Both the position numbers and the translations under genes were made by a program. 64,000 nt of DNA from Actinomyces sp. oral taxon 170 str. F0386 (GTDB taxonomy: Bacteria > Actinomycetota > Actinomycetes > Actinomycetales > Actinomycetaceae). The notes under the pieces were generated by a model. That model saw only the letters and a program-made list of their open reading frames with translations, ran no database searches and was not told the origin of the DNA. The stretch covers positions 186,001 through 250,000 of the forward strand of contig NZ_GL882544.1 of assembly GCF_000195595.1 (NCBI RefSeq), written 5' to 3'. The first letter of the stretch is position 1. The number at the start of each line of letters is the position of its first letter. Shown piece after piece: positions 34,373 through 43,968 of the stretch.

Positions 34373-35128
34373 ATGCTCTCACTCGATCACTTACCCGGCA
34401 CCTGGCGCACCAGACGCGCCGGCGCGCTGGCCGTGACCGCTGTCATCACGCTGTCGACCTTCTGCTGGCTGGCTATCACCACAAGCGTCGGAACAGGACT
34501 GGCACCCCACGACCAGGGAGTCACCGCCTGGGCCGTGGACGGACGTCACCCAGCCCTGACCGTCATCATGCAGGTGTTCACCGCCCTGGGCTCCACCGTG
34601 GGACTGACGGTCCTGACCGCGCTCTGCGCCACTCTCCTCTTCATGCGGGGGCACCGCGTGCGCGCCCTGGTCCTGACCTTGACGATGCTCGGCTCCAGCC
34701 TACTGACAGTGGCTCTCAAAGGGATCCTCGGGCGCACACGTCCCTCAACCGACACCCTCCTGGGCCCGCCCGCCACAACCACCTCCTTCCCCTCGGGGCA
34801 CTCCTTCAACACGGCCGTCTTCACAGGACTGCTGGCGGGAATGGTCCTGCTGTCCACGACGGCGGTGGTACACCGGACACTGGCGATCATGGCAGCGGCA
34901 GGGGCAACCCTCCTGGTGGGCACCTCCCGCGTCTATCTGGGCTACCACTGGATGACTGATGTCATGGCGGGATGGTCCCTGGGACTGGCCTGGTTGTGCC
35001 TGGCCACACTGGCGATTCTGTGGCTGCAGGGACGACGGCGCCCGCCTCAGGCTCATTCCAACGATCCCTCGGGCGCATCATCAGCGACGACCTCAGGAGT
35101 ACACGGCGTCGAGCCACCATCGGCCTGA
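34373..35128 (+). CDS. PAP2-family membrane phosphatase
   Basis: 251 residues, start at the ATG 34373 before a hydrophobic N-terminus. Five to six membrane segments frame the acid-phosphatase triad: KGILGRTRPS (Lys/Arg) near 120, FPSGHSFN (His) near 142, and RVYLGYHWMTDV (Arg, His, Asp) near 185. Such enzymes dephosphorylate undecaprenyl pyrophosphate or phosphatidate; the catalytic set is intact. The 3' end overlaps that of the convergent imuB by 36 bases. Confidence 0.9.
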   Translation: MLSLDHLPGTWRTRRAGALAVTAVITLSTFCWLAITTSVGTGLAPHDQGVTAWAVDGRHPALTVIMQVFTALGSTVGLTVLTALCATLLFMRGHRVRALVLTLTMLGSSLLTVALKGILGRTRPSTDTLLGPPATTTSFPSGHSFNTAVFTGLLAGMVLLSTTAVVHRTLAIMAAAGATLLVGTSRVYLGYHWMTDVMAGWSLGLAWLCLATLAILWLQGRRRPPQAHSNDPSGASSATTSGVHGVEPPSA

Positions 35129-36799
35129 GCGCACCAGCAGACGAGGCGGTCCGACGTCAGTGACCACCTGGAGGTAGGCACGACGCGAAGGGCCCTGCGG
35201 AGTCCACCAGCCCTCGTCGACAGGCCAGGGCCCGGCCCACGCAAGCACGGACTCCAAGCCCCCACCATTGGCGCCGCCACCGATGACGCCACCACCTTCC
35301 TCGGCATCATCGCCGATGGCCAGGAAGCCGGGAACGCCGTCGAGCTGACCGTGGATGTCGACGCCGAGCTCGCACCCCTGGGCATCAGTGAGACGCACAG
35401 GAACCGGCCGGGGCAGGATGATTGAGGGCGAGGGCTCGGGCAGGGAACCGCTCCAGGGCGCCGAGGCGCCACCAGAGGGCTCACCTACACGCTCCTCCTC
35501 ACCCCAGAAGATCAGACGCACCCGCGAGCGCGGGTCGCGTCCGGGAACGACTGTGGGGATCTGGACGGTGCCGGCTCCGATGAGGGACTCCACGCGCTCG
35601 GCGGCGCGGTGGGCGCGTGCCTGGGTCTGTTGGCCGGGCGCTTGCCACAGTCCTGTCTGGGAGGTTGTGGCGGGACTCAGCTCGAGGGCCGTCAGGCTCA
35701 GGTGGGTCAGTCCGGAGGAGGGCGGTCGCCCGGAGCGCCCGGAGAGCCAGCCCTCGAGCTGCCAGCGCACACGGTCGGCGAGCTCTGCGGTGGTGGGGGT
35801 GGTCTCCAGCATCCAGGTTCGGGCCAGGTCGGCGCCGTCCTCGCAGCGGGCCTGCACGCAGAGGCATCCGACGGCGAGACCTTGGGACAGGAGCCGGGTG
35901 ACCAGGTTCTCGGCGAGGTGGCGGGCGGCGAAGGCGGCGGTGTCCGCGCGTTCCACGGGTGGGTCGAGATCGGAGGTGACGGTGATGTCCTGGGCGGGTC
36001 GAGTCATGGCGGGAGCCTCGTGGTGGGTGCCGGCGGCCAGGTGGTGGAGTCTTTCTCCCATGGGGCCGAAGCGGGCGACGACGTCTTTTCGGGGCAGGGA
36101 GGCCAGGTCCGCCAGGGTGCGCAGGCCGAGCCGGGTGAAGGTCTCCAGCAGGGGGCGAGCCTCGCGTCGCAGGCGTCTGAGGGGTAGACATGCCAGGAGC
36201 GCTTCCAGGGGCCAGGGGGCGAGGAAGTCCGGGGTCTGTCCCGGTTTGACGATGATTCCCTGGCGGGCGGCGAGGACGGCTCCGGACAGGGAGTCGGCGA
36301 TACCGACTTGGCACTCGGTATCGGCCTCCTGGGCGACGGCCTCGACGAGGGCTGCGGCAAGAAGCTCTTCTCCGCCGGCCCAGGTGGCAGGTCCTTTGGC
36401 TCCGGACAGGGCCAGTCCGGGACGGGCCACGATGGGCTCCGCGAGGAGAGAGGTGAGGGCCTCCATGACGGTTTCGAAGGCGCGACCCTCGCGTTCCTCC
36501 TGGGGAGGTAGGACGGTGAGTCCGGGGCACAGGGACCGGGCGGCGCGCAGTCGCATACCGGTGGTGATTCCGGCGCTGCGGGCGGGGGCGGAGGCGGCGA
36601 GGACTCCGCGGACGCCGACGACGGCGACGGGCTCGGTGGCTGGGTCCAGTAGGCGCAGATCACTCTGGTGGGCGCGGTGGTGGCGGCGCTGCCGGCGGGC
36701 CTCCATGGTGAGGGCGACGACGGGCCAGTCGGGGACCCAGATGGCCACGAGCCGGGCAGCGGGCAGTCCGGGTGGCAGGCTCGGTTGCGACCGGCTCAT
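35093..36799 (-). CDS. imuB: ImuB, catalytically inactive Y-family polymerase homologue
   Basis: 568 residues from ATG 36799, overlapping the imuA' stop (ATGA). It opens RLVAIWVPDWPVVAL, where active Y-family polymerases have the first catalytic aspartate, and continues with VVGVRGVLAASAPARSAGIT and a helix-hairpin-helix region (RLGLRTLADLASLPRKDVVARFG). The catalytic acidic pair is not apparent, as expected for ImuB, which acts as a hub binding the beta clamp, ImuA' and DnaE2. The C-terminal tail ends RRAYLQVVTDVGPPRLLVRSG in the family manner. Confidence 0.88.
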   Translation of the reverse strand: MSRSQPSLPPGLPAARLVAIWVPDWPVVALTMEARRQRRHHRAHQSDLRLLDPATEPVAVVGVRGVLAASAPARSAGITTGMRLRAARSLCPGLTVLPPQEEREGRAFETVMEALTSLLAEPIVARPGLALSGAKGPATWAGGEELLAAALVEAVAQEADTECQVGIADSLSGAVLAARQGIIVKPGQTPDFLAPWPLEALLACLPLRRLRREARPLLETFTRLGLRTLADLASLPRKDVVARFGPMGERLHHLAAGTHHEAPAMTRPAQDITVTSDLDPPVERADTAAFAARHLAENLVTRLLSQGLAVGCLCVQARCEDGADLARTWMLETTPTTAELADRVRWQLEGWLSGRSGRPPSSGLTHLSLTALELSPATTSQTGLWQAPGQQTQARAHRAAERVESLIGAGTVQIPTVVPGRDPRSRVRLIFWGEEERVGEPSGGASAPWSGSLPEPSPSIILPRPVPVRLTDAQGCELGVDIHGQLDGVPGFLAIGDDAEEGGGVIGGGANGGGLESVLAWAGPWPVDEGWWTPQGPSRRAYLQVVTDVGPPRLLVRSGRWWLDAVYS

Positions 36800-37695
36800 C
36801 CGGCTGCCTCCTGCGGTCCGGCGGCCGGTTCGGCGGCCCCGTGGGACCGGGCCTGCAAGCCCTGGGCGGTCAGGGAGAGCGTGAGGGCGCCCGTGGTGGC
36901 GGTCTGTGGGCGCCGAGGGTCGGTCAGTGTCCAGGTGAGGCGGCGCAGGTATCCGGCCGGTATCTCCACCGCTTGTGCCGGAGCACGTGAGGTCCTTCGC
37001 CCGATGGGGATGACGACGCCGTCGGTGGAGGGCTCCGCAGGGGCCTGGGTAGAGGCTCCGTCTTCGCTTCCGGTGTCGGAGGCCAGGGGGTGGGCCTGGA
37101 GAATACGTGCTCCTTCCCAAGGGGCGGAGGTCAGGATGAGGTGGCCGCGTTCGCGCGCCCGAGCCAGAAGGCGTCTGCGGTGCTGGGGACGCAGGCGCTC
37201 GGCGACGGTGGAGCCGATGAGGAGGGCGTCGACGCCGTCGAGCAGGGTGGAGACGACGGTGGGGATGGAGGCGTCATCGAGAGCTGATGCGGGGACAGTC
37301 AGGACCCGGTCGAGGTCGAGGCCGACCTCGACGGCCGCGCACCATCCCACCTCGTCTGCTCCAACGGCGGCGCACCAGCCGGCACTTCCCTGGCGCAGAG
37401 CGAGGGCGGCCAGGAGAAGGGTGGCGGAGCCTTGCAGGCTGAGCGCACCTGAGTCCTGCGCGGCCGTGAGCGCCATGAGGGACGCCGTCTGAGACGAGCC
37501 GGCCGCAGCACTCGCGGCGCTCATTGACGGGCTGGTTGGCGCCGAGGAGACGGCGCGTTGCACCTCCAGGGCTGCTGCGTCACGCAGACCTGTGCGCTCC
37601 TCAGCCAGTCTCAGGGCGAGGCGGGCCTGGACGAGGCGGTCCCGAGCGCCTGATGGTACGAGTGCGGTCACGGCTGTCACGACACCTTTCTCCAT
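36796..37695 (-). CDS. imuA': ImuA' mutasome protein
   Basis: 299 residues from ATG 37695 (MEKGVVTAVTALVPSGARDR). It belongs to the RecA-like ImuA' proteins of actinobacteria, recognised here mainly by context: immediate coupling to imuB and a perfect LexA box two bases before the start. Internal features are ALRQGSAGWCAAVGADEVGW near residue 110 and a LTSAPWEGARIL segment near 195. The frame continues 18 codons upstream through the LexA box, which argues against the longer form. Confidence 0.8.
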   Translation of the reverse strand: MEKGVVTAVTALVPSGARDRLVQARLALRLAEERTGLRDAAALEVQRAVSSAPTSPSMSAASAAAGSSQTASLMALTAAQDSGALSLQGSATLLLAALALRQGSAGWCAAVGADEVGWCAAVEVGLDLDRVLTVPASALDDASIPTVVSTLLDGVDALLIGSTVAERLRPQHRRRLLARARERGHLILTSAPWEGARILQAHPLASDTGSEDGASTQAPAEPSTDGVVIPIGRRTSRAPAQAVEIPAGYLRRLTWTLTDPRRPQTATTGALTLSLTAQGLQARSHGAAEPAAGPQEAAG

Positions 37696-37696
37696 G

Positions 37697-37712
37697 TCGA
37701 ACAAGTGTTCGA
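37697..37712. promoter_or_regulatory. LexA SOS box of imuA'-imuB
   Basis: TCGAACAAGTGTTCGA has two exact half-sites of TCGAAC-N4-GTTCGA. It ends two bases before the imuA' ATG and lies just downstream of a minus-strand -10 element TATTCT (37724-37729). DNA damage induction of the mutasome follows from the family. Confidence 0.85.
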
Positions 37713-37913
37713 TGATGAGGTCCAGAATAGCGCTCCGGTGTGACATCAATCAGGGCCGGCAGTAACAAACTATCCTCAAGGCAGTGACAAACTCCTTGGA
37801 GGTCTTCCACAGGAGATCCACAGGGACGGGTTTACGCAGGGGCGTCTACAGTGGTGGCCGTGCCCTCACGGAAGGTCACCACCCTCATCCATATCCTGCC
37901 TGGAGGTACACCT

Positions 37914-39373: not shown

Positions 39374-39832
39374 TCAGGCTCCACCGGCAAAGTCCAGGGA
39401 GCGCCAGGCCTCGTACAGGCCGATGGCGGCGGAGTTGGCCAGGTTGAGGGAGCGGTTGCCCTCCACCATGGGGATGCGCAGATGGGCGCTCACCCTCGGA
39501 TGGTCGAGGATCTCCTGGGGCAGACCGGTGGGTTCGGGGCCGAACAGGAGGGTGTCGTCGTCGCGCCAGTCGACCTGGGTGTAGAGACGCTCGGTGTGGG
39601 AGGTGAAGGCGAAGATGCGCCCAGGGACATGCTCCAGACACTCCTGCCAGGTGGCGTGGACAAGCGTGTTGGCCAGGTCGTGGTAGTCCAGGCCGGCGCG
39701 ACGCAGCTTGGCATCGTCCATGTCGAACAGGGGGTCCACGAGGTGAAGCATGGAGCCGGTGTTGGCGCTCAGGCGGATCGCCGCCCCGGTGTTGCCCGGG
39801 ATGCGCGGGGAGAAGAAGATGACGTGCAGCAC
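39374..39832 (-). CDS. trmL: tRNA (cytidine(34)-2'-O)-methyltransferase TrmL
   Basis: 152 residues, typical of the minimal SPOUT enzyme that methylates the wobble ribose of leucine tRNAs. It starts at GTG 39832 (MLHVIFFSPRIPGNTGAAIR), with GRIFAFTSHTE and the knotted SAM-binding part LLFGPEPTGLP ... IPMVEGNRSLNLANSAAI. The first 17 coding bases and 27 upstream bases recur at 43925-43968, marking one edge of the inserted cassette. Confidence 0.93.
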   Translation of the reverse strand: MLHVIFFSPRIPGNTGAAIRLSANTGSMLHLVDPLFDMDDAKLRRAGLDYHDLANTLVHATWQECLEHVPGRIFAFTSHTERLYTQVDWRDDDTLLFGPEPTGLPQEILDHPRVSAHLRIPMVEGNRSLNLANSAAIGLYEAWRSLDFAGGA

Positions 39833-39859
39833 GGGGACAATGAGACCACATGCTGAGGC
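39816..39859. repeat. direct repeat A (trmL 5' end) bounding the ABC cassette
   Basis: These 44 bases cover the first codons of trmL and its leader. They match repeat B (43925-43968) at 40 positions and exactly over the 23 bases 39834-39856, in the same orientation. All four differences are A/G changes. Confidence 0.85.
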
Positions 39860-39880: not shown

Positions 39881-40666
39881 TCAGATGGTGTCGGTGCGTT
39901 GGCCCTGCCGGAGTCGGGTGATGGCTCGGCGGGTGACGGCCAGTCCGATCCCGGCCCACGCGGCGGCGACCGCGAGATCCCGGCCCAGCAGAACGGGGAC
40001 GGCGTCGACCGGTGCGTCCAGGACCGTCAGGGTTCCGCTGACCGGAACTACCCGGGCCAGGGCCTGCAACCAGGCGGGGCACTGCTCGAGCGGCACGATG
40101 ACGCCGGTAAGCAGTGGCAGGAACGTCGCGATAATCGTGGTCCCCAGGTAGGGGTCGGGCAGGCTGACGCCGACGCCGGCAGCGGCGATCCCCATAAGCA
40201 GCCCGCACACGATCGCCGGAGCCGCCAGCACGATGACGCGCCCCAGCATCGCCGGATCATGCTGCGGCGACAGGGTGAAGACAGCTCCGATCGCGACGAC
40301 GGCCGTCAAGGCGGCCAGGAGCGCCGGCACAACGGCAACGGCCAGCCAGTAGGCGACGTCGAGGCGCCTGCGGGTGTGAACCTCTTGGAAGACGCCCAGC
40401 ATCCGGTCTGTGGCCACGGTGCTCACCACGCCGGAGGCCACCGAGACGGACAGCGCTACCAGGACCGCGGCGTAGCCAGTGCGCACCAGGTCGGGTGCGG
40501 AGAGGTCCGAGCCCATGAGAACGTCGAAGAGCACGTCCAGCAGCGGCAACACCAGTAGCGTCACCACGGCCGTCCCCAGGGTCGCGAAGGCCGTCGACGA
40601 GGCCCAGGACACCCTCACCCCGGAGGCGAAACGGTGGACGAAGGCCAGAGCCTGAGCGCGCATCAT
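39881..40666 (-). CDS. ABC-2 type permease (second permease)
   Basis: 261 residues from ATG 40666, which overlaps the stop of the preceding permease gene and has a TGGAGG site 5 bases upstream. Six hydrophobic segments (FATLGTAVVTLLVLPLLDVL, VLAAPAIVCGLLMGIAAAGV and others) are arranged as in ABC-2 exporters, with the conserved central amphipathic part LPLLTGVIVPLEQCPAWLQA. It would form a heterodimer with the first permease and use the ATPase encoded upstream. The size and pairing resemble LanE/LanG-type peptide exporters. Confidence 0.85.
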   Translation of the reverse strand: MMRAQALAFVHRFASGVRVSWASSTAFATLGTAVVTLLVLPLLDVLFDVLMGSDLSAPDLVRTGYAAVLVALSVSVASGVVSTVATDRMLGVFQEVHTRRRLDVAYWLAVAVVPALLAALTAVVAIGAVFTLSPQHDPAMLGRVIVLAAPAIVCGLLMGIAAAGVGVSLPDPYLGTTIIATFLPLLTGVIVPLEQCPAWLQALARVVPVSGTLTVLDAPVDAVPVLLGRDLAVAAAWAGIGLAVTRRAITRLRQGQRTDTI

Positions 40667-41421
40667 ACTACCTCCAGGGTCCCGGCCCGCGTCGCCAGCC
40701 GCAGCGCTCGTCGCCCCAGGAAGGAGGAGACCCCTAGCCACGCGGCGGTGCACACCAGCCAGCCGCCCAGGGCAGCCACGCTCGTCACTCGACCTAGCAG
40801 TAGCTCGAAGGGCACCGACAGCGGCAGGAATCGACTCGCCGCGGCCAGCCAGGCGGGCGGCGCCGCCGAGGTGAACACGATGCCCGAGGCAACGAACACC
40901 GGCACCAGCAGCAGCCCCTCGTACTGGATCGCGTTGGGAGTGAGCACGAACAGCGCCGCGATGACCAGGCTCAGGGCCACGCAGCCGGCCAGCAGCATGA
41001 GAGCACCCACGACCAGGCGTGCCCAGACCTCCCATCCCGGCCCCGTGAAGGACACCGACGCCGACAGCAGCGCCCACGTGCACCAGGCCACCGGGAAGGC
41101 GGCCAGCCCGAAGGAGGCCGCCGCGCATACCACGGCCGCCAGCGATCGCAGTGCCCCCACCGGAGCCAAGATCAGGTGGACGAGAGTACCCTTGTACCGC
41201 TCAAAGCCGATAATCCCCGCTGCACAGGTCGTCGTCGTCCACATCCCGACAACGCCCCCACGCACCCAGCCCTGCATCGGGGTGATCCCGCCCCAGGCCG
41301 AGGCCGCTAGGAACTGCACCAGCGTGGTCGCAGTCGTGGTCATGACCATGAGCTGGATAAAGTAGGGCACCGAGACGAACTGACGGACGTGAAAGGCCGT
41401 CATCCTCAGCTGGCGTTTCAT
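40663..41421 (-). CDS. ABC-2 type permease (first permease)
   Basis: 252 residues, starting in an ATGA overlap with the ATPase stop. Six hydrophobic segments are visible (YFIQLMVMTTTATTLVQFLA, LMLLAGCVALSLVIAALFVL), with the EGLLLVPVFVASGIVFTSAA core typical of ABC-2 proteins. It is unlike the second permease in sequence, so the exporter is a heterodimer. It stands in the run TPR-like gene, ATPase, permease, permease. Confidence 0.85.
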   Translation of the reverse strand: MKRQLRMTAFHVRQFVSVPYFIQLMVMTTTATTLVQFLAASAWGGITPMQGWVRGGVVGMWTTTTCAAGIIGFERYKGTLVHLILAPVGALRSLAAVVCAAASFGLAAFPVAWCTWALLSASVSFTGPGWEVWARLVVGALMLLAGCVALSLVIAALFVLTPNAIQYEGLLLVPVFVASGIVFTSAAPPAWLAAASRFLPLSVPFELLLGRVTSVAALGGWLVCTAAWLGVSSFLGRRALRLATRAGTLEVV

Positions 41422-42416
41422 CGGACGAGCCTGTCTGCCAGGGCCAGATAGGCCTCTTCCAGCGAGGCCGGCCGCGTCACCAGGTCCGACGGCACCCCCA
41501 CGCCGGCCTCGGCCAGGACCTGTCGAACCCGCTCGTCCGCGTCGGTGGTGTCAGCAGCCTCGGCTGCCCAGTAGACCGTGACCGCCCACCTGGCCGAGGA
41601 GGCGCGTTGATCCACTGTCGCCCGCGATCCCAGACGACCGCGAATCGCCTCAACAGCGTCCCCGTGACGGGCCAGCAGCGTGAAGGTCGTTGTGGCACTC
41701 ACCCCGGCGAAGGCGGACACGTCACCGACGCCGCCGCGCACAACGATCCGGCCTGCACCGATCACCGAGATGACGTCGGCCAATTCCTCGACCTCTGGCA
41801 TCGAGTGCGAGGTCAGCAGCACCCCGGTTCCTCGCTGCGCCAACTCACGCACCAGGTCACGTACCTGCAGCGCCACGTCCGGATCCAGGCCGATGGTGGG
41901 CTCGTCCAGCAGCAGGAGCGAGGGCGAACCGAGCAGCGCCCGAGCCAGGTGAAGACGCTGACGCATCCCTCGAGAGAGCTCGGCGGTCTTACGGGACGCC
42001 GCCTCGGCCAGCCCCACACGCTCCAGGGCGTCCATGACCGAGCTCTGTCGTCGTCGGGCATCAAGCCCCTGCAGGTCGGCGAAGAACAGCAGGTTGTCGC
42101 GCGCCGTGGCCCTCGGATAGAAACCCAGCTCACCGCCCAGGACCAGGCCGAGCCGAGACCTGGCCCGCTCCGGATGGCGCACCGCGTCGATACCCTCAAC
42201 CCAGACCTCGCCCGATGTCGGAGCCAGAAGCGTGGCGCACATCCGCACCGTCGTCGTCTTACCGGCGCCGTTGGGCCCCAGCAGGCCGTGAACCTGACCC
42301 GCCCCCACATCCAGGGACACGTCCTCCACGGCGACGAAGGTCTTGTCTTTTTTCCCGAAAGAGCGAACCAGACGGGAAGCACGCAGCAGCAACAGATTCT
42401 CATCAAATGAGGCCAT
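41418..42416 (-). CDS. ABC transporter ATP-binding protein
   Basis: 332 residues from ATG 42416, which has a strong GGAAGGA site; upstream ATG codons are inside the preceding gene. Walker A GPNGAGKT is at 47-54, the signature LSRGMRQ near 147, Walker B LLLLDEP near 167 and the H-loop SHSMPE near 202. The 80-residue C-terminal extension is typical of DrrA/BcrA/NatA-type exporters. It overlaps the upstream unknown gene by 14 bases, tying that gene to export. Confidence 0.92.
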   Translation of the reverse strand: MASFDENLLLLRASRLVRSFGKKDKTFVAVEDVSLDVGAGQVHGLLGPNGAGKTTTVRMCATLLAPTSGEVWVEGIDAVRHPERARSRLGLVLGGELGFYPRATARDNLLFFADLQGLDARRRQSSVMDALERVGLAEAASRKTAELSRGMRQRLHLARALLGSPSLLLLDEPTIGLDPDVALQVRDLVRELAQRGTGVLLTSHSMPEVEELADVISVIGAGRIVVRGGVGDVSAFAGVSATTTFTLLARHGDAVEAIRGRLGSRATVDQRASSARWAVTVYWAAEAADTTDADERVRQVLAEAGVGVPSDLVTRPASLEEAYLALADRLVR

Positions 42417-43554
42417 AGATTCCTTCCAACCCCAAAGGATCACGTTCAAAAACTTCAACCACTCTCTCAGCCTTACCCTCTGATCCTAACTTAAAATGAC
42501 ATGCGGCCATAATTTCACGAACCGATTTCATGGCACTTAAAGATCCTATTTGTTGGAATCGCCAGAAGGCATCTGGCCCAATATCAAGCACAGCATCATA
42601 CTCTTCATTTAAGTACATAACATAACAATACTCAGCCAATGCCTCAGGGAAATATTCATACGATTCTTCATAAATAAACCGAATGTTGTCCTTCAAGATT
42701 TTCAAAGCATCAAGAGGCTTACTAGACGCCACTCGTAGTTGCGCCTGATTAATTGCTATTTGACTTCGATACCTACCTGCCATCGACCATGTATCTAAAT
42801 CAAAATCTTCTCGACACACACTTGAAGATTCTAGGCATTCACACGCCTTCACCATGAACTCCACAGATCGAGGATCCCCTAGTTTGAGGTATCCGAGAGC
42901 CATGAGATTATACATCAATGCCTGATCTAAAATTTGTCGAAAATTATTCGAACAAACGTAGCGCTCGCCAGCAATATTCAATCGTTGTAACGCCTTGTTG
43001 GATGCCGAAAGTTTCTTGATTTCAAATGCGGCCGAACGATGTGCTGCCGCATAGGCATTCGTTGGATTATGTGCGACACATTCAGCTTCATCAAAAAACT
43101 CTATCGCTTTCACGTCGCCACACGCACCAGTTACCACACCACAGTATATCAACAACTCGTAGTCACCAGATCCAAGTATCTCTGAAGAACGCTCACGAAT
43201 AGCATCAATAACGGTCTCGTAGTCGCCAAAAAACAGAATGGCTGCATCAATCCTATGCTTTAGATTATCGAGCTTGGACTTGTGAATAAAATCTTTGAGA
43301 GCGGATCTCGGAATTGCCTCGGTGTTGGCAAGTTTTAGATGAGCGTCATAAAATAGACGTGGATCATCAAACAATCTAACACCCATGTCTGTCACATAAT
43401 ATGGAGCACCTACGGAACGCCCGGAAAAATCGACTCCACTATCGAGCGAATCCCATAAAAAACGAAACCTCTCGGCGAACGCCGGAGATATAGGACGACC
43501 ACTCAGATGAGTATTCAACTCATTTAAATGATCTTGAATGTTCTGATGACACAT
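42403..43554 (-). CDS. unknown TPR-like helical protein of low G+C
   Basis: 383 residues, start fixed by GGGAGG 6 bases before ATG 43554. The protein appears almost wholly alpha-helical. Repeating helical pairs after residue 150, such as ALMYNLMALGYLKLGDPRSV, AINQAQLRVASSKPLDALKI and AEYCYVMYLNEEYDAVLDI, suggest tetratricopeptide-like repeats. There is no helix-turn-helix, signal peptide or membrane segment. A+T content is far above the neighbours, indicating transfer. It lies between a 33-codon peptide gene and an ABC exporter. Size and build recall Rap/RRNPP peptide sensors, but I see no firm homology; function unknown. Confidence 0.8.
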   Translation of the reverse strand: MCHQNIQDHLNELNTHLSGRPISPAFAERFRFLWDSLDSGVDFSGRSVGAPYYVTDMGVRLFDDPRLFYDAHLKLANTEAIPRSALKDFIHKSKLDNLKHRIDAAILFFGDYETVIDAIRERSSEILGSGDYELLIYCGVVTGACGDVKAIEFFDEAECVAHNPTNAYAAAHRSAAFEIKKLSASNKALQRLNIAGERYVCSNNFRQILDQALMYNLMALGYLKLGDPRSVEFMVKACECLESSSVCREDFDLDTWSMAGRYRSQIAINQAQLRVASSKPLDALKILKDNIRFIYEESYEYFPEALAEYCYVMYLNEEYDAVLDIGPDAFWRFQQIGSLSAMKSVREIMAACHFKLGSEGKAERVVEVFERDPLGLEGIYGLI

Positions 43555-43623
43555 TTCTAACCTCCCATACCTCCGACGTTCACCAAATTAATCATGTGCA
43601 CAGAAACACGGTTCCAGCCACCA

Positions 43624-43725
43624 TCACTGCGGCGCGGGGCCGTGGTTCCACCCCATCATCATAGCAGCGAACACCCGAGTCTTATCATCCTCGAGCTTGC
43701 TGACAATTTTGTCGACCTTCTGCAT
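43624..43725 (-). CDS. 33-residue peptide, possible precursor of an exported or signalling peptide
   Basis: A strong ribosome site (AAAGGGGGTGA, 9 bases before ATG 43725) opens 33 codons: a charged amphipathic start MQKVDKIVSKLEDDKTR, then VFAAMMMGW and the ending NHGPAPQ. It is on the same strand as, and 69 bases before, the TPR-like gene, and heads the run that ends in the ABC exporter. An acidic/basic leader followed by a small-residue and aromatic C-terminus resembles precursors of ribosomally made peptides or pheromones. It could also be a plain leader peptide. No family recognised. Confidence 0.5.
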   Translation of the reverse strand: MQKVDKIVSKLEDDKTRVFAAMMMGWNHGPAPQ

Positions 43726-43924: not shown

Positions 43925-43968
43925 AAGATGACATGCGGCACAGGGACAATGAGACCACATGCTGAAGC
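43925..43968. repeat. direct repeat B (displaced trmL 5' end)
   Basis: This stretch matches 40 of 44 bases of repeat A at the trmL start and is exact over 43943-43965. On the minus strand it reads as a start-like GTG followed by PHVIF, like the first residues of TrmL, then runs into unrelated A+T-rich sequence. It looks like a trmL beginning cut off from its gene. Confidence 0.85.

Follow-up and report, generated by a model that had tools for sequence, protein, structure and literature searches.

Descriptions of cytoplasmic tetratricopeptide-repeat (TPR) receptors for peptide pheromones come from Bacillota and from mobile elements of that phylum, which is also the one that the available portions of two surveys search or treat (PMC10075063, PMC12700828). 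Five criteria for RRNPP systems are given there, among them a propeptide of 10-100 residues, a TPR receptor of 250-500 residues, adjacent genes and secretion by the Sec pathway, from which SHP and PrgQ are exceptions that use PptAB (PMC10075063). Rap proteins target two-component systems and are not themselves transcription factors (PMC9765709, available text), ComA being one of the targets that Rap blocks (PMC9765709, PMC3246441). In the accessible part of a review of quorum sensing in Actinobacteria, TPR appears only as a domain name in a table (PMC4748050). Here we report the analysis of a five-gene run on the minus strand of a 64,000-nucleotide stretch (the window) of Actinomyces sp. oral taxon 170 str. 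F0386, contig NZ_GL882544.1, encoding a 33-residue peptide, a 383-residue TPR-like protein and a three-gene ATP-binding cassette (ABC) exporter. No earlier description of such a peptide-TPR system was found in open PubMed Central papers.

The locus resembles RRNPP systems in peptide size, receptor length, TPRs (by weak matches) and gene adjacency (with one exception, locus L025), and departs from them in Sec secretion; homology to known RRNPPA receptors was not found by sequence. We give an even chance to the proposal that the peptide and the TPR protein form a peptide-receptor module, in which the latter would act as a cytoplasmic receptor and gate a partner. In this scheme the binding, the export, the signalling and which way control runs are inferred. 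The short peptide would be made without a signal sequence, and its C-terminal W-x-H(-G) segment would serve as ligand for the cytoplasmic TPR protein encoded with it; that protein may act through contact with another protein, like the Rap proteins. In a second branch, a family of the same order designated f91, the partner would be a co-encoded NarL/LuxR-type response regulator. In Actinomycetaceae a dedicated ABC-2 exporter would most likely carry the peptide out, in a role like that of PptAB for SHP. Once re-imported or retained, the peptide may report producer density. The host genome (G000) has five matches to oligopeptide-binding proteins.

Peptide family and its TPR partner

The 383-residue protein was searched in 213 genomes of Actinomycetaceae and matched in 17 of them: 11 full-length homologues, one split into two frames (G179), one truncated (G170), three fragments (G029, G190 and G023) and one chance match (G121), beside which neither exporter nor peptide was found. 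The ten other full-length homologues share 26-72% identity with the window protein. Immediately upstream, 10 of the 11 full-length loci and also the split locus carry a small frame ending in W-x-H(-G); the truncated locus has none. The sequence-only reading had expected similar small frames beside homologues of the 383-residue protein, and took homologues without an adjacent frame, or a peptide not conserved by residue, as signs to the contrary. Overall, the expected frames are present and the W-x-H motif is kept, L025 being the one intact exception.

The peptides follow the pattern I...L....F(A)....(A/G/S/V)W(N/S/T/A/R)H(G), with a further 0-9 residues as a tail. Tryptophan is the sole invariant column in an alignment of 18 peptides and the tail after it varies. 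The peptides are 23-40 residues long as read, the starts of L089 and L094 being uncertain. Comparison of the window with A. oris, of which strain WE8B-23 encodes a relative of the 383-residue protein, revealed purifying selection on the peptide, with a ratio of non-synonymous to synonymous changes per site (pN/pS) of 0.16. The first 28 codons carry 9.5 synonymous changes over 14.5 sites and 7.5 non-synonymous changes over 69.5 sites, whereas the same codons read in the other two frames give 2.5-3.5 synonymous and 12.5-13.5 non-synonymous changes.

The motif was also tested against small frames in general. Sense frames of 20-60 residues, read from the most upstream start, were scored when they ended in xW[NSTAR]H with no more than 10 residues after it and lay at most 450 nt upstream. 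Of the 29 TPR loci, 20 scored positive, whereas only 4 did among 2521 small frames from other parts of those loci; the nominal p-value of this test overstates the case, because the loci are related and are not 29 independent trials. Five of the nine negatives contain the motif in a frame longer than 60 residues from the most upstream start (L028, L087, L093, L098 and L099), two have the histidine replaced (by P in L089 and Q in L101) and two lack a peptide (L025 and L033).

Profile matches mark the 383-residue protein as a divergent member of the TPR proteins. TPR_12 matches five of 19 family members (best E 7.9e-4) and TPR_2 three of 19, all weakly, and the window protein alone has no match up to 0.1. 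Profile searches of the Protein Data Bank (PDB) found a designed repeat protein at 5.5e-5 and kinesin light chain TPRs at 0.0075 and up with alignment A3, and the HOP TPR at 0.0038 with alignment A1. HOP and the kinesin light chain, whose TPRs bind peptides, are thus the nearest natural solved sequences, as weak matches. Asn216 and Asn269 are invariant and sited in TPR-like helices; in RRNPPA receptors, asparagines of this kind hold the backbone of the peptide. The receptors are 374-408 residues long, depending on the chosen start.

The protein had been read as of Rap-like size without a DNA-binding part and as outside known families, and both descriptions hold. No DNA-binding domain was recognised by domain searches; the window protein has no NCBIfam or Pfam match, bar Pfam ANAPC3 at E 0.16, and PHROGs and PADLOC searches with four family members gave no match. 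No homologues were found in phages, plasmids or viral contigs. The family occurs in one of 396 genomes of a phylum sample, the window's own, and in one of 81 genomes of the family of G892. Partial matches in six further genomes at class level (E 1.9e-5 to 6.4e-4) were rejected as generic TPR or chance, because the frames are 592-1089 residues long and no W-x-H small frame accompanies them in the fetched stretches.

A response-regulator operon in family f91

An order-level sample gave matches in 18 of 396 genomes, namely the window's own, G892 and 16 genomes of family f91. The TPR gene occurs in 16 of the 18 f91 genomes, including all ten with completeness of 90% or more and contamination of 5% or less, so that the peptide-TPR pair is near-universal in this family. 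Fifteen of the 16 f91 loci were examined, L102 being left out (3.9-kb contig), and the peptide is present in every one. Each of the 15 offers a TPR start codon in a 4-nt overlap with the peptide stop, which we chose over other in-frame starts close by. The f91 peptides keep W-T-x-G in 15/15 and the histidine in 13/15, the same two replacements accounting for the rest. Their pooled pN/pS is 0.25, and with a mean identity of 74%, against 67% for the TPR protein, the peptide is at least as conserved as its neighbour.

The product of the third gene combines a receiver domain with a GerE/LuxR helix-turn-helix (HTH) in all 14 loci with room for it, the contig of L096 ending too early. This call was made by Pfam on L092, by alignment in 13 loci and by direct reading in L089. 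The regulator frame overlaps the TPR stop in 14/14; in eight of them the longest frame has its start 8 nt ahead of the stop, and in the other six deeper inside the TPR gene. Peptide, TPR protein and NarL/LuxR-type response regulator form one operon with the layout of Phr-Rap-ComA. The regulators (L088-L095, L097-L101 and L051) bear an N-terminal extension that is variable and about 100 residues long. Those of L095 and L101 carry Glu at the presumed phosphorylation-site Asp, a site assigned by eye.

The logic of the operon matches Rap-Phr and RRNPPA homology was not found, so we describe the system as working like Rap-Phr and not as a member of that group. A broader proposal, that a Rap-Phr-like superfamily evolved in Actinomycetota apart from RRNPPA, with a NarL-type regulator or the cassette exporter as partner, is put forward tentatively and with some doubt.

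The f91 loci bear on whether the small frame could instead be a cis-acting leader that stalls the ribosome or attenuates, tuning translation of the TPR and exporter genes, for example to a drug or an amino acid. Its position directly upstream, its good ribosome site, its conserved residues near the C-terminus of the peptide and the drrA-like ATPase of the downstream exporter would suit such a role. However, the overlap of the peptide stop with the TPR start codon leaves no room for an attenuator in f91, where the peptide is kept with no exporter beside the pair, and the tail after W-x-H ranges from 0 to 9 residues. The window has no terminator-like site between the peptide and TPR genes, the nearest lying upstream of the peptide (five sites in the scan vs 3.4 in shuffles). 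An Rfam search found no family at its gathering score, and one match under that score was rejected. We consider a leader very unlikely.

G892, of another family (locus L087), has the peptide and exporter genes open and the TPR frame broken by one stop. This single in-frame TGA near the TPR start is either a recent pseudogene mutation or a sequencing error.

Exporter, decayed loci and the trmL cassette

As the sequence-only reading had stated, a three-gene ABC exporter adjoins the pair. In 12 of 13 Actinomycetaceae loci the TPR gene is followed by genes for the ATPase, permease 1 and permease 2; in the thirteenth the contig ends. The exporter stays under the NCBIfam cut-offs: the ATPase reaches 227.5 bits vs 312.45 for drrA, permease 2 reaches 16 vs 223.05 for drrB, and permease 1 has no match. 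Divergence of the TPR protein correlates with that of the exporter (r=0.77, n=11, 0 of 2000 permutations), which shows that the TPR gene and the exporter are co-inherited.

This association and co-inheritance argue against an explanation in which the peptide stays inside the cell and serves the TPR protein as a constitutive cofactor, the TPR protein in turn regulating the response regulator (f91) or the exporter (Actinomycetaceae). Such an intracellular microprotein would agree with the lack of a signal sequence-like stretch, and in f91 with the lack of an exporter beside the pairs, the overlapping peptide, TPR and regulator genes and the conservation of the peptide relative to the TPR protein. 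We regard it as unlikely.

Eighteen loci without a full TPR gene were examined. TPR fragments were found in four (G022, G023, G029 and G190). Among the other 14, the only TPR traces are three matches at E 0.034-0.045 and, in G011, a possible TPR tail, read together with a relic peptide (WNR for WNH). The three tblastn matches, at the orphan-exporter loci L141, L145 and L146, were rejected as chance; the L141 stretch sits where a TPR remnant would be expected, but its translation is unconvincing. Together with G170 there are six decayed loci in which peptide and TPR gene are lost or eroded: L086 (G022), L036 (G023), L139 (G011), L034 (G029), L035 (G190) and L033 (G170). The exporter genes remain open in five of them (G011, G022, G029, G170 and G190).

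Such retention is what orphan immunity would leave. It favours, with the patchy distribution, the repeat-flanked cassette and the arrangement of one ATPase with two permeases known from LanFEG/Drr systems, a bacteriocin-like or self-toxic leaderless peptide that the TPR protein restrains or chaperones and the exporter secretes while giving immunity. Leaderless bacteriocins are cationic and amphipathic peptides. Against this explanation, the net charge of the peptides here ranges from -7 to +6. All 18 aligned peptides retain the tryptophan, whereas the tail beyond it is variable, and the near-universal f91 pair is accompanied by a response regulator, with no exporter observed next to it. Exporter retention is also not universal, since permease 1 of G023 carries a stop. 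We find this explanation fairly unlikely. The sequence-only reading had offered a pheromone or a bacteriocin, and its bacteriocin half comes out as the weaker one, given the varying charge, the missing leader and the f91 pairs, although the decayed cassettes that keep their exporter fit immunity.

Several observations weigh against the peptide-receptor module. The exporter genes kept in decayed loci are the chief evidence for an exporter role that is immunity-like or independent and speak against a pure pheromone exporter. Permease 1 occurs in 30 of the 213 genomes, which means that many exporter copies lack a peptide-TPR pair, and L025 (G196) has an intact full-length TPR gene and exporter with the peptide absent. 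A Sec-like stretch is absent in 27 peptides (maximum 12-residue hydropathy 1.18), which makes a Sec-exported pheromone unlikely. No exporter gene was seen in any of the 15 f91 stretches, of which nine cover at least 5 kb downstream, exporters elsewhere in the genomes not having been sought; an extracellular step there is thus hypothetical. A motif scan near the Actinomycetaceae loci found no LuxR-type regulator, the sole match, at L027, looking unrelated. On the receptor side, none of the 19 PDB matches with E up to 10 in this sequence-level comparison is an RRNPPA chain, and a two-sequence structure model is mostly helical, poor (pLDDT 54.5) and not interpretable further.

The cassette lies at the 5' end of a SpoU-type methylase gene, which we take to be trmL, and is bounded by 44-bp direct repeats, the trmL-side copy being the start of trmL itself. 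The trmL gene was matched in 49 of 49 genomes of the genus. A second, upstream copy of its first 44-45 bp is found in G000, G003, G022 and G023, and a longer second trmL copy in G047. Among 16 relatives inspected over about 3.1 kb each, the repeat core is single-copy in 13 and has no match within four mismatches in three; the GNAT gene is directly upstream in nine of the 16. These repeats mark insertion of the cassette at the 5' end of trmL, and with the single-copy sites in relatives they are the signs of the transferable cassette that had been suspected. No recombinase was seen among the genes of the cassette. The trmL start appears as a recurrent insertion site, five Actinomyces genomes carrying the cassette there with repeats; the sites beyond the window are L022, L023, L036 and L086, those of G022 and G023 being decayed. 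Other loci sit elsewhere, for example behind a presumably ispH-like gene in G196 and G190.

All five minus-strand frames named in the sequence-only reading are present in the window at their positions (Table 1), flanked by the SpoU-type methylase gene and the GNAT gene. Their reported coupling by overlaps applies to the last four genes only, which overlap by 14, 4 and 4 nt; the peptide gene is not coupled in this way, a gap of 69 nt separating its stop from the ATG of the 383-residue gene. The ribosome site of the peptide, AAAGGGGGTGA, ends 8 nt ahead of its ATG. The G+C content of the 383-residue gene is about 0.41-0.48, vs about 0.69 in the exporter genes and flanks. Elsewhere in the window, a Y-family polymerase (IMS domain; 35093-37120, minus strand), presumably ImuB-like, is preceded by a possible ImuA-like gene (36796-37749) with no Pfam match up to 0.001.

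Table 1. Features of the cassette and its insertion site, in window coordinates.
Feature	Position	Strand	Remarks
33-aa peptide MQKVDKIVSKLEDDKTRVFAAMMMGWNHGPAPQ	43624..43725	-	W-x-H peptide family member; no signal peptide-like hydrophobic stretch
383-aa TPR-like protein	42403..43554	-	probably the peptide's intracellular receptor or partner
ABC transporter ATPase	41418..42416	-	ABC_tran 1.5e-30; top NCBIfam match drrA, under cut-off
ABC-2 permease 1	40663..41421	-	exporter gene
ABC-2 permease 2	39881..40666	-	exporter gene
Direct repeat, trmL-side copy, at trmL start	39816..39859	-	
Direct repeat, far (GNAT) side of cassette	43925..43968	-	91% identical to trmL-side copy
SpoU-type methylase (trmL-like), insertion target gene	39374..39832	-	

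Comparison with known systems

If the proposed module is true, it would provide a peptide communication system for Actinomycetota, oral Actinomyces included, with a clear ligand motif, and a comparison group for the origin of cytoplasmic TPR peptide receptors. Binding and reporter tests would be simple with a small synthetic peptide.

The exporter shares with the LanFEG/DrrAB type its composition of one ATPase and two permeases of about 250 residues. It differs in staying under the drrA and drrB cut-offs and in its place behind a peptide-TPR pair, orphan and decayed copies apart. Actifensin, also from Actinomyces, is likewise a small peptide with ABC genes; in contrast to the parts of its description available, the present cassette has no Cys framework, leader, protease or LuxR set (PMC6989792). 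Leaderless bacteriocins of Actinomycetota, in the available text, are small peptides without a leader that come with ABC genes, from which the present family differs by its variable net charge and its TPR partner (PMC11580447). Rgg-SHP and PrgX with PptAB are similar, in the accessible account, in the lack of a Sec signal, the use of another translocon and the cytoplasmic TPR receptor, whereas the receptor here has no recognised HTH and the exporter is encoded in the same operon, its ATPase being nearest drrA in NCBIfam (PMC10075063).

The closest parallel is Rap-Phr(-ComA) of Bacillus. The present system differs from it in belonging to Actinomycetota, in having no RRNPPA chain among its PDB matches, in the peptide lacking a Sec-like stretch and in the W-x-H motif. 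Whereas phr lies downstream of rap, the peptide gene here is upstream of the receptor gene, and one branch has a dedicated ABC-2 exporter. Both systems place a small peptide gene beside a TPR protein of 250-500 residues without a recognised HTH and can sit on a mobile cassette. In f91, the operon also includes a NarL/LuxR-type response regulator, as ComA is a target of Rap.

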